A stretch of DNA of 64,000 nucleotides from Bacteroidia bacterium (GTDB lineage: Bacteria > Bacteroidota > Bacteroidia > Cytophagales > Flammeovirgaceae). A program made the position numbers and the translations under genes. The DNA lies in assembly GCA_030425505.1 (NCBI GenBank), contig JAUIAB010000008.1, positions 1 through 64,000 of the forward strand. The letters are read 5' to 3'. This document shows, piece after piece, positions 28,465-33,001 of the stretch; position 1 is the stretch's first letter, and every line of letters begins with the position of its first letter. The notes below the pieces were generated by a model. That model made no database searches. It was not told the DNA's origin and saw nothing but the letters and a program-made list of their open reading frames with translations.

Positions 28465-28602
28465 GCACCCTCCACGATGCCTATCCCGGCTGCCAAAGCT
28501 AGACCTAGCCCACAAAGCTATTCGATCTTTGGCTTAGCCTCTTGCCCCAGGGTGCTAATTTAACCTCAGACCTAACAGGTCTAAAACCTGTTAGGTCTGA
28601 GG
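28465..28602 (+). repeat. Composite dispersed repeat, copy 1: structured module plus palindrome
   Basis: Positions 28465-28555 form a module whose ends pair (GCACCCT 28465-28471 with AGGGTGC 28549-28555) and which contains a second pairing GCCAAAG/CTTTGGC (28492-28498, 28527-28533). It is followed by a palindrome with perfect 17-base arms (28564-28580 and 28586-28602) and a 5-base loop. The module resembles the reverse complement of 51722-51793. The palindrome shares ACCTAACAGG/CCTGTTAGGT with the two others at the neighbouring transposase gene. Confidence 0.7.
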
Positions 28603-28612
28603 CAAGCTTTAA

Positions 28613-29206
28613 TTACTCTAGCAAAAACTGCTCTTTCAAATACATATTTATCTCTTCTTTATGAAATTTCATAAATACTTTCCTACCTCCAAACCATTCT
28701 AGAACATACTTCCTTTCCAAAGCAGTAGGTTTATCACTTAAAATAGCTCGATAAGAACTAAAAGGATAATCCTCAAAGTTCTTTGTAATCTTATAATGCA
28801 AAGGGTTGCGGTGGATATAGGAGATTATAATTGTAAAATAATCATCATCTGTAACTTCAACTCTTTTAAAAGGTAGTTGAAATAATTTCCCACTCCTATT
28901 TTGTTCCCGATTAAAAGCTTTAGCATACGCATTAAAGAAATCACTAAAGGGCTTTGATAAAGAAAACCTAACAGGTTTCAAAAACCTGTTAGGTCTCTGT
29001 ATAAACTCTTTTTCTTTGATCTTGATCAGAAAATGGAAATGGTTTGGTAGTAGACAATAAGCATATGTATCAGCTATTGGATTTATATAGTGTGTGTATT
29101 TCTCAAGAAAATATAAATAATTGCTTTTGCTTTTAAAGAGTACCTCATTGCCATTTGCTCGGTTATAAATATGATAAAAGCTTCCATGTTCAAGTATGGG
29201 TTGCAT
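28613..29206 (-). CDS. REP-associated tyrosine transposase (RAYT, Y1_Tnp family)
   Basis: This 197-residue single-strand DNA transposase-like protein has an N-terminal FYHIYNRANGNEVLF, the HUH metal site in LLPNHFHFLIKI (HFH, about residues 56-58) and the catalytic tyrosine region in SYIHRNPLHY (about 139-148). RAYTs are domesticated relatives of IS200/IS605 enzymes that act on REP palindromes. Matching palindromes flank the gene on both sides, and a third lies inside the coding sequence (28966-28994), encoding RPNRFLKPVRF between the HUH and Tyr motifs without breaking the frame. It is intact and possibly active. Confidence 0.88.
   Translation of the reverse strand: MQPILEHGSFYHIYNRANGNEVLFKSKSNYLYFLEKYTHYINPIADTYAYCLLPNHFHFLIKIKEKEFIQRPNRFLKPVRFSLSKPFSDFFNAYAKAFNREQNRSGKLFQLPFKRVEVTDDDYFTIIISYIHRNPLHYKITKNFEDYPFSSYRAILSDKPTALERKYVLEWFGGRKVFMKFHKEEINMYLKEQFLLE
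28966..28994. repeat. REP-like palindrome inside the RAYT coding sequence
   Basis: Perfect 13-base arms ACCTAACAGGTTT (28966-28978) and AAACCTGTTAGGT (28982-28994) flank a 3-base spacer. It has the same core as the palindromes downstream and upstream of the gene. It is read through in frame. Confidence 0.85.
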
Positions 29207-29256
29207 ATTTTATATAAATCTTTACCTTAAGATTTAACTTTCTAAAAAAGATTAAC

Positions 29257-29289
29257 ATACCTAACAGGTTTTGAAAACCTGTTAGGTAT
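29257..29289. repeat. REP-like palindrome upstream of the RAYT
   Basis: Perfect 16-base arms (29257-29272 and 29274-29289) surround a single G. The core ACCTAACAGGTTTT/AAAACCTGTTAGGT is the same as at 28966-28994. It lies between the RAYT start and the stop of the next lipoprotein gene. Confidence 0.85.
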
Positions 29290-29893: not shown

Positions 29894-29942
29894 GTGGTTG
29901 ATATTTATAAATGACAACTTGAAATTTATAAATATCAACCAC
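29894..29942. repeat. Perfect 19-bp inverted repeat in a gene-free stretch
   Basis: The arm GTGGTTGATATTTATAAAT (29894-29912) has its exact reverse complement at 29924-29942, with an 11-base loop. TATTTTTTC follows on the plus strand. It lies in the 464-base divergent gap (29751-30214) upstream of both flanking genes, so it is not an end-of-gene terminator for either. Nothing else was recognised in that gap. Confidence 0.7.
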
Positions 29943-30214: not shown

Positions 30215-33001
30215 ATGGAATCCGATAAAAAGCTTTTTCTTTTAGATGCTATGGCTCTGATTTACAGGGCACATTTTGCTTTTAGCAAAAACCCGCGAAT
30301 TAACTCTAAAGGCTTAAATACTGGTGCAGCTCTTGGCTTCACTAATTCTTTAGTAGAAATCTTAAAAAAAGAAAAACCTACCCACATAGCAGTTGCTTTT
30401 GATACCCCTGCTCCTACTTTCAGGCATAAGCAGTTCGTAGAATACAAAGCCAACCGGCAAGAACAACCAGAAGACATCAGAACTGCGATTCCATACGTAA
30501 AAAAGATCTTAAAAGCGTGGCAAATCCCTGTACTGGAGCTAGATGGGTACGAAGCAGATGATGTAATTGGTACTATAGCAAAAAAATGCTCTAAAAAGGG
30601 TTATGAAGTCTATATGATGACCCCAGATAAAGACTATAGTCAGCTAGTTGAGGATACCATTTTCCTATATAAACCAGCCTTTATGGGTAATGGAGTTGAT
30701 ATTTTAGGAATACCTGAGGTTTTAGCAAAGTGGAATATTGAAAGAGTAGACCAGGTAACTGATGTGCTTGGTTTACAAGGAGATAGTGTCGATAATATTC
30801 CAGGAATCCCAGGGATAGGACCAAAGACTGCTTCTAAGCTGTTGAAAAAATTTGGTTCAGTAGAAAACATTGTAAAGAATGCTCATCAACTTGTTGGCAA
30901 ACAAAAAACGCAAGTAGAAACTTTTGGAGATCAGGGTATTCTATCAAAAGAACTTGCTACCATCGATATAGATGTCCCCATAGAAATCTCTGATGAAGAT
31001 CTCAAATATACCGGCTACAATAAAGAGGAGTTAAATGCAATCTTTATAGAACTAGAGTTTAGAACTCTTGCAAAAAGAATTTTTGGAGAAGCAATCACTT
31101 CTGAAAAGCCTCAAGGGAAGCAAAAGTCAATGTTTGAGGGCACAAATGAAGAAATTACTATTTCAGTAGCACCAGAAGAAAGCACGATCAAAACTATCAC
31201 TGATATTAGACACAATTACCATCTAGTTGAAAAAGAAAAAGATTTGAAAGAGCTAGCTAAGTTTCTAAGCCTACAAACTAGTGTTTGCTTTGATACCGAA
31301 ACTACTTCTTTAAACCCATTAGAAGCTGAACTGGTGGGAATTTCATTTTGCTATGTAAAAAATGAAGCCTACTATATTCCCATTCCAGAAGAAGAGAATT
31401 CTGCAAAAAAAGTTCTTGCCCATTTCCAATCTTTCTTCGAAAATGAAAAAGTAGAGAAAATAGGGCAAAATATTAAATACGACATACTGGTACTTAGGCA
31501 GTATGGGATTAATGTAAAAGGTAAATTATTTGATACCATGCTAGCCCATTACTTAATCGAACCAGACACCAGGCACAATATGGATATTTTATCCGAAAAA
31601 TATCTTAGCTATAAGCCGATTTCCATTGAAACTTTAATTGGAAAAAAAGGAAAAAAACAAAAGAGTATGCGCTCAGTGCCTTTACATTTACAAGTAGAAT
31701 ATGCAGCAGAAGATGCTGATATTACTTACCAACTAAAAGAAAAACTTAGTCCACAGTTGGATACGTACGGGGTAAGAAAACTTTTTGAAGAAATTGAAAT
31801 TCCATTAATAAATGTTCTTGCAGATATTGAATCAACAGGAGTAAAAATTGATACGGAAGCTCTTCACAAATACTCTGGAGAACTCAATGATGATATAAAG
31901 CTATTAGAAAATAAGATCCACTCAGAGGCTGGAACTACTTTTAATATTGCCTCGCCTAAGCAGCTTGGAGAAATTTTATTTGACAAGCTCAAACTGGTTG
32001 AAAAACCAAAAAAAACTAAATCTGGGCAATACGCTACTGGAGAGGAAATATTAGTCCAATTAGCTTCTAAGCATGAGATCATCCAAAATATTCTGGATTA
32101 CAGACAGTTACAAAAACTAAAAAATACCTATGTAGATGCATTACCAACTCTAATTAGCCCAAAAGACGGGTTAATACACACCTCGTTTAACCAAGCCGTA
32201 GCCGCTACAGGAAGATTAAGCTCTACCAATCCTAATCTTCAAAACATCCCTATAAAAACAGATAAAGGTAGAGAAATACGAAAGTCTTTTACTCCTAGAA
32301 GCAATGAAAATGTGATCTTTTCTGCTGACTATTCACAAGTAGAGTTAAGAATAATGGCTGCATTTAGCAAAGATCAAACTATGATAGATGCTTTTAAAAA
32401 TGAGAGAGATATTCATGCTACCACTGCAGCCAAAATATTTAAAGTAGATGTTGAAGATGTAACTTCTGATATGAGAAGGAAAGCAAAAACGGCAAACTTT
32501 GGTATTATCTACGGAATTTCTGCCTTTGGGCTTTCACAACGATTAAATATTCCAAGAAAAGAAGCAGCAAGTATAATAGATGCTTATTTTGAAGAGTTTC
32601 CTTCTGTAAAAGAATATATGGATAACATCATTGAGTTTGCTCGTGAAAATGAATATGTAGAAACTATTTTGGGCAGAAGAAGGTATCTGAGGGATATAAA
32701 CTCGAGGAATTACACTTTAAGAGGTATGGCAGAAAGAAATGCCATCAATGCCCCCATTCAAGGAACTGCGGCAGATATAATCAAAAAAGCAATGATAAAT
32801 GTACAGAAGTGGATGCAAAAGGAAAAACTAGAATCTACTATGATTCTTCAAGTGCATGACGAGCTTGTTTTTGATACCAGAAACTCTGAAATAGAAATCC
32901 TTGAAGAGAAGATTCCATACTTAATGGAAAATGCAGTAGATATAGGAATCAAACTTAAAGTAGAAACTGGTTTAGGAAAAGATTGGCTTGAGGCTCATTA
33001 A
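30215..33001 (+). CDS. polA: DNA polymerase I
   Basis: This 928-residue protein has all three domains. The 5'-3' nuclease covers about 1-290 (LLDAMALIYRAHFAF, DTPAPTFRH, GYEADDVIGT, GDSVDNIPGIPGIGPKTA). The 3'-5' proofreading exonuclease covers about 325-510 and has intact acidic motifs (CFDTETTSLNP, GQNIKYD, YAAEDADITYQ). The polymerase covers about 530-928 (SADYSQVELRIMAAF, RRKAKTANFGIIYGISAFGLS, LQVHDELVF). It works in Okazaki fragment processing and repair synthesis. It is transcribed alone after a long divergent intergenic region. Confidence 0.97.
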   Translation: MESDKKLFLLDAMALIYRAHFAFSKNPRINSKGLNTGAALGFTNSLVEILKKEKPTHIAVAFDTPAPTFRHKQFVEYKANRQEQPEDIRTAIPYVKKILKAWQIPVLELDGYEADDVIGTIAKKCSKKGYEVYMMTPDKDYSQLVEDTIFLYKPAFMGNGVDILGIPEVLAKWNIERVDQVTDVLGLQGDSVDNIPGIPGIGPKTASKLLKKFGSVENIVKNAHQLVGKQKTQVETFGDQGILSKELATIDIDVPIEISDEDLKYTGYNKEELNAIFIELEFRTLAKRIFGEAITSEKPQGKQKSMFEGTNEEITISVAPEESTIKTITDIRHNYHLVEKEKDLKELAKFLSLQTSVCFDTETTSLNPLEAELVGISFCYVKNEAYYIPIPEEENSAKKVLAHFQSFFENEKVEKIGQNIKYDILVLRQYGINVKGKLFDTMLAHYLIEPDTRHNMDILSEKYLSYKPISIETLIGKKGKKQKSMRSVPLHLQVEYAAEDADITYQLKEKLSPQLDTYGVRKLFEEIEIPLINVLADIESTGVKIDTEALHKYSGELNDDIKLLENKIHSEAGTTFNIASPKQLGEILFDKLKLVEKPKKTKSGQYATGEEILVQLASKHEIIQNILDYRQLQKLKNTYVDALPTLISPKDGLIHTSFNQAVAATGRLSSTNPNLQNIPIKTDKGREIRKSFTPRSNENVIFSADYSQVELRIMAAFSKDQTMIDAFKNERDIHATTAAKIFKVDVEDVTSDMRRKAKTANFGIIYGISAFGLSQRLNIPRKEAASIIDAYFEEFPSVKEYMDNIIEFARENEYVETILGRRRYLRDINSRNYTLRGMAERNAINAPIQGTAADIIKKAMINVQKWMQKEKLESTMILQVHDELVFDTRNSEIEILEEKIPYLMENAVDIGIKLKVETGLGKDWLEAH

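Follow-up and report, generated by a model that had tools for sequence, protein, structure and literature searches.

The 64-kb stretch of DNA analysed here (the window) carries, at 28613-29206 on the minus strand, an open reading frame for a REP-associated tyrosine transposase (RAYT) of 197 amino acids, with a palindrome on either side of it and a third one inside it. Sequence and conservation identify two motifs in the protein, the HUH motif NHFH (aa 55-58; 29033-29044, minus strand) and the catalytic tyrosine motif YIHRNP (aa 130-135; 28802-28819, minus strand). N55, H58, Y130 and N134 are invariant among 59 aligned sequences, in which H56 is at least 90% conserved, and NHFH recurs in 108 of the 128 RAYT ORFs of the homologue sample described below. 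The functional role of the tyrosine and the asparagine in the catalytic motif is taken from Quentin et al. (2018; PMC6006769).

The NCBIfam model NF047646 (REP_Tyr_transpos) matches the window protein with 51.3 bits (E 1.1e-13), below its curated cut-off of 80, and all 59 aligned family members at E ≤ 0.001, and the match to Pfam Y1_Tnp is weak (14.6 bits, E 0.037, cut-off 23). A direct search of the window protein against PDB sequences gave no match, and the structure 4er8 (E. coli TnpAREP) was reached through the 59-row family profile only (E 4e-8). With the AlphaFold model (mean pLDDT 91.8) as a Foldseek query, 4er8 is again the best fold (E 2.1e-8; TM 0.59 by query and 0.69 by target). The characters of RAYT/TnpAREP proteins found here are an HUH motif combined with a single tyrosine motif of the form Y---NP (NHFH and YIHRNP), a Y1 transposase fold like that of E. 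coli TnpAREP in the predicted structure, and two REP-like flanking palindromes with five remote genomic copies. The product is thus a RAYT, as the original prediction had it, and its family is represented among the sampled relatives from Bacteroidota and Chloroflexota.

The downstream palindrome (28564-28602; the palindromes are given without strand) spans 39 bp with perfect arms of 17 bp and lies about 10 nt past the stop codon. The upstream one (29257-29289; 33 bp, perfect 15-bp arms) lies about 50 nt before the start. The internal palindrome (28964-28996) has the same 33-bp length, with 15-bp arms that contain one mismatched pair and enclose a 3-nt loop; its perfect part is 28966-28994. The RNA of each palindrome folds as a single long hairpin (-34 kcal/mol downstream, -20.6 kcal/mol upstream and -21 kcal/mol, z -5.8, for the internal copy), and all three share the core ACCTAACAGGT. 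The six exact occurrences of ACCTAACAGG in the window all lie within the three palindromes; with up to one mismatch there are eight matches, against a mean of 2.75 in shuffled sequence, where 1 of 100 shuffles reached eight. The internal copy corresponds exactly to codons 71-81, in frame, and encodes RPNRFLKPVRF between NHFH and YIHRNP; because it measures 33 bp (15-3-15), it adds exactly 11 codons. The original prediction had described the three positions, the common core and the in-frame peptide between the two motifs, and all were found as claimed. Elsewhere in the window, a 49-bp perfect inverted repeat unrelated to the REP (29894-29942; 19-bp arms, 11-nt loop) sits in the gap between a 159-aa ORF and a DNA polymerase I-like gene (named by eye) that starts at 30215.

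The original prediction had also proposed a genome-wide count of the palindrome. In the draft genome (2.95 Mb, 41 contigs) an exact pattern with 10-nt arms finds six copies, three of them at the RAYT locus, and a looser arm pattern finds eight among the matches listed; a reversed control pattern has no match in the whole draft genome. By a simple rule, none of the five remote copies lies within an ORF, so that the RAYT-internal palindrome is the only coding copy found in the window's genome.

A variable loop after the HUH strand

In the AlphaFold model the internal palindrome encodes part of a disordered loop: residues 71-80 have a mean pLDDT of 64, in a coil (69-84) between a strand (56-63) and a helix (85-101), which we take to be beta3 and alphaC, respectively. 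The linker of the window protein is 38 aa long, and without the 11 added residues it would measure 27 aa, the length seen in the palindrome-free relatives L045 and L048. The low-confidence coil, together with this match in length, makes the loop look permissive, and its disorder lends good support to the proposal in the original prediction of a tolerated insertion that is now translated with the enzyme. The same prediction had tied a reading as ancestral coding sequence to the presence of these residues in homologues; this check does not refute the prediction, as RPNRFLKPVRF occurs in none of the other 124 linkers compared. From one relative to another the linker is free to differ in length and in residues. 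The median length is 46 aa with a palindrome and 40 aa without (p 0.0018), a difference that is weak evidence by itself given the wide overlap, with palindrome-free linkers reaching 112 aa. The linker of that length, in L095 (genome G019), contains eight TCATCNGATGA-type repeats encoding SSDD/SSDE, as if multiplied in tandem. In the palindrome-free linkers of L063, L081 and L110, inspection by eye gave the impression of residues resembling decayed repeats.

The homologue sample comprises 129 loci, a part of the homologue matches in which partial and weak matches are least represented. It holds 128 RAYT ORFs in 126 loci: L049, L134 and L135 have no RAYT ORF, the gene of L048 is in two pieces and L101 has two genes. 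Three of the 128 ORFs did not align at the linker anchors, leaving 125 for comparison. A palindrome lies inside 38 of the 128 ORFs, and in 35 of the 125 alignable homologues it is in the linker, from the HUH motif to the next helix; the other 90 have no intact one there. As the genomes were drawn from the order and class of the window, with 12 named loci added, 35/125 is not a census. The palindromes of L021 (aa 124-135), L106 (aa 19-28) and L120 (aa 202-212) lie outside the linker, and L061, L074 and L101 have a second, more distal internal palindrome. On the count of 35 in 125 we rejected the view that the feature is unique to the window gene. The internal copy, which the original prediction had called unusual, is not so for this family: apart from the 35 homologues, an arrangement of the same kind was published in 2018 (PMC6006769). 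The observation itself is true, as one case of a recurring arrangement with published precedent.

The commonest palindrome span is 33 bp (20 of 35 internal and 72 of 167 flanking palindromes), and the 15-nt arm is often a 6-3-6 hairpin in itself, with at least 5 of 6 pairs formed (24/35 internal, 78/167 flanking, versus about 3% of shuffled arms). Their density is 0.54 per kb inside the genes versus 1.39 per kb in the flanks. When the best 15-pair complementarity in the linker is scored, 14-15 pairs are found in 32 of 127 genes, 13 in one, 12 in none and 11 or fewer in 94; among stretches of equal length elsewhere in the same genes, 14-15 pairs occur in 0.3% of 635 draws. This count covers fused palindromes whose centre measures 1, 3 or 5 nt, and it places the split elements of Chloroflexota described below in the background class. 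A neutral, slowly lost repeat would be expected to leave many half-decayed copies, and such copies are nearly absent.

Relation to published RAYT subclasses and intragenic repeats

Quentin et al. (2018; PMC6006769) describe in-frame REPs between the HuH and Y motifs in one RAYT subclass (TnpAY1 2.4, RAYT group 4). The window family resembles this subclass: Bacteroidetes are among the hosts, REPs flank the gene, and a further REP lies in frame in the variable region that separates the HuH strand from the following helix. Judged by its sequences, however, the family appears as a departure from the published subclass 2.4 in both REP foot and protein motifs. The REPs of subclass 2.4 are described there with a GT[AG]G or C[TC]AC foot (PMC6006769), whereas the palindromes of the window family lack a GT[AG]G foot: it is absent from the ends of all three window palindromes and occurs in 12 of 202 family palindromes versus 12.1% of control windows, and thus is not enriched. 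In place of the WQ given for the subclass, Phe replaces Trp in 119 of 128 ORFs (FQ at aa 109-110 in the window protein). The tyrosine motif is mostly YIHxNP and not YIxNNP, although the published motifs are consensus sequences from which members may deviate; YIHQNP is the commonest form (29 of 128 ORFs), with YIHRNP in the window. Also unlike subclass 2.4, an SSY serine motif follows the tyrosine motif (aa 150-152 in the window protein), and PMC6006769 assigns a serine motif to subclasses 2.1, 2.2, 2.3 and 2.6. We considered membership of subclass 2.4 and did not assign it, since the foot and the WQ and YIxNNP motifs differ.

Subclass 2.6 (RAYT group 5; PMC6006769) appears to share with the window family the Bacteroidetes hosts, a YIH[QN]NP-like motif, the lack of GT[AG]G and the serine motif, with YIHRNP in the window protein itself. 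It is described there with WQ and with an insertion of 21 aa that lies between alphaC and beta4, whereas here the variable insertion comes immediately after the HUH strand. In the window model, 12 residues separate the helix at 85-101 from the strand at 114-118. The accessible text of the paper reports no internal REP for subclass 2.6 genes.

Short palindromes in frame within unrelated protein-coding genes, tRNA synthetases included, are known from intragenic GTAG/CGTC REPs and Rickettsia palindromic elements, as described in PMC3733652. The elements studied here are similar in this respect, but those of PMC3733652 carry GTAG/CGTC tags and sit in host genes, whereas here the GTAG tag is absent and the RAYT gene itself is a frequent site. 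PMC8266576 deals in part with guide sequences and cleavage. Within the accessible portions of the literature on RAYTs, REPs and intragenic palindromes, and among the titles listed, we found no work on the nucleotide-level upkeep of an internal REP.

By the simple rule, 13 of 76 remote copies in seven genomes, a part of the copies of those genomes, lie within an ORF, and seven of the 13 were checked with Pfam. In five of the seven, the insert is inside or between the domains of a genuine gene: a class I tRNA synthetase, a MiaB-like radical SAM protein, a MeaB/mutase, an MG2-domain protein and an Eco57I-type methylase. The synthetase is presumably of the Ile type, and the radical SAM protein is MiaB-like by our own reading. 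The other two inserts (L146 and L190) are so placed, close to the N-terminal end of the open frame, that they may precede the true start. In-frame copies in five genuine genes indicate that palindromes of the RAYT type can enter unrelated proteins. The synthetase gene (L174, genome G245) and the MiaB-like gene (L154, genome G299) each hold such a palindrome in frame.

Gain, loss and agreement with the flanking copies

On a tree built without the linker, the presence of a linker palindrome requires 19 changes, at least eight of which are forced by well-supported branches. Shuffled labels need 31 changes on average, so presence is clustered and is not a single event. A single ancestral insertion is therefore unsupported, with the proviso that this is a quick tree in which 56 of 122 inner branches are open; it omits L047, a near-copy of L046, and both pieces of L048. 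With so many open forks the gain in the window gene cannot be dated; the gene stands beside a group of 55 rows, six of which have a linker palindrome. The homologues L111 and L115, 65% identical, hold closely similar palindromes in different reading frames. In the 33 internal palindromes whose length is odd, the central base occupies codon position 1 in 25 cases, position 2 in 6 and position 3 in 2. The pattern of tree and frames fits repeated insertion with selection for an open frame.

The arms vary widely between loci and mostly agree within a locus. In 18 of the 23 loci that allow the comparison, an exact 10-mer is common to the internal copy and its own flanks, versus 12% for the flanks of other loci, and the mean similarity to the own flank is 0.88, versus a maximum of 0.72 in 10,000 permutations (p ≤ 1e-4). 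In only 15 loci does the own flank match better than those of all the other loci, and in five of the 23 the internal palindrome has no 10-mer in common with its flanks. The remaining 12 of the 35 genes with a linker palindrome have no scored flanking palindrome within 500 nt.

REPINs consist of two inverted REPs around a spacer. In four Chloroflexota genes (L039, L040, L042 and L043) a pair of inverted REP ends occupies the linker, each pair spanning 91 bp, and such REPIN-like elements, seen in these loci and in genomes G498-G501, have fixed ends and variable spacers of near-constant length. The window and most of its relatives differ from REPINs in that the two halves have merged into one palindrome, about 33 bp long and short in the centre. 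Neither repeat end is present in L041, of the same Chloroflexota group. Elements of the 91-bp type occur 21 times, exact internal copies included, in four of five genomes, several of them near the RAYT gene. Pairwise identity at third codon positions, in six pairs drawn from only four sequences, is 55/57 for the REP ends; the spacer gives 62/132 and the remainder of the gene 574/1149. The internal spacers are 0.51-0.61 alike between genomes, and shuffled ones 0.51 on average with a maximum of 0.63; since the spacers are no more alike than shuffles, one old insertion and repeated insertion are indistinguishable in these Chloroflexota genes.

Probable upkeep of the internal repeat

We consider it probable that a cognate REP has been inserted repeatedly into a permissive loop, and that the intact repeat was then kept by homogenisation or selection. 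A cognate REP-like palindrome would enter the disordered coil that connects the HUH strand to the helix after it, a place where extra residues are tolerated; internal copies were gained and lost many times, and resident copies mostly remain near-perfect and matched to the flanks, whether through copying or conversion by the RAYT system or through selection. The insertion site, the preserved frame, the recurrence, the agreement with the own flanks in most testable loci and the lack of decayed intermediates are direct observations. That RAYT activity did the inserting, and what causes the upkeep, we infer from them; ordinary gene conversion without RAYT could also homogenise flanking and internal copies. 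The idea that the stretch is ancestral coding sequence merely resembling the repeat, by chance or convergence, draws only on its being translated, and it is extremely improbable for a near-perfect 33-bp palindrome with a core identical to both flanks, in a linker whose length and residues are free to vary; we rejected it on the shuffles, the flank identity, the linker variation and the scarcity of 14-15 pairs in the draws from elsewhere in the genes. A purely selfish, tolerated insertion with fast turnover, in which the loop is often hit and copies are deleted before they decay, would require no upkeep. It would account for the many gains and losses on the tree, for similar in-frame insertions in unrelated genes and for the lower density inside than in the flanks, which is expected if nearby sites are often hit. 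We nevertheless regard it as rather unlikely, as the four Chloroflexota genes keep a 91-bp element in the same place while their third positions elsewhere are 50% identical, although re-insertion is possible there.

The upkeep may instead reflect selection on a cis-acting element, with the RAYT, a nuclease or the ribosome meeting the hairpin in the mRNA or the single-stranded gene and thereby regulating expression or mobility. Apart from the third positions in Chloroflexota and the near absence of decayed palindromes from linkers, this explanation is favoured by six disjoint pairs of genes that share palindrome and frame: at identical residues, codons are identical in 51/60 cases inside the palindrome versus 474/769 outside, a result that is suggestive only, because the pairs were picked for their common palindrome and frame, which biases it upward. 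It also agrees with genome G137, where the internal copy is the sole one by the looser pattern among the matches listed. In genomes G445 and G274 the RAYT gene holds the single exact-type copy, with five by the looser pattern among the matches listed, and five other genomes have copies elsewhere as well, or only elsewhere. However, homogenisation or re-insertion of the same family would yield an identical pattern, the third-position counts come from four sequences, and the element is not required, given that 90 of 125 relatives do without an intact linker palindrome; we judge a cis-acting role to be quite unlikely. It is also possible, as the original prediction suggested, that the messenger or the single-stranded gene may be a substrate of its own product.

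RAYTs are associated with their own REPs. We tentatively raise the idea, doubtful at present, that the internal palindrome is a maintained self-recognition element in a family outside the published REP-carrying subclass, an intact copy of the enzyme's own substrate kept by selection or by RAYT-driven conversion. If so, gene, mRNA and substrate specificity would remain coupled even with few or no other copies in the genome. Given the published precedent, the significance of the window itself is modest. An enzyme family with a recurring, intact internal repeat that tracks its flanks nevertheless offers a natural record in which insertion, choice of frame and homogenisation can be counted.

The window's genome encodes a second RAYT (contig C19), 47% identical to the first. 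Its gene contains a different palindrome in the same linker, in frame and partly like the palindrome upstream of it. Within L008:1489-3347 this gene lies directly upstream of type II cas1 and cas2. The ORF before it (L008:5-1366) has no NCBIfam or Pfam match and, by eye, may be the end of a cas9-like gene.
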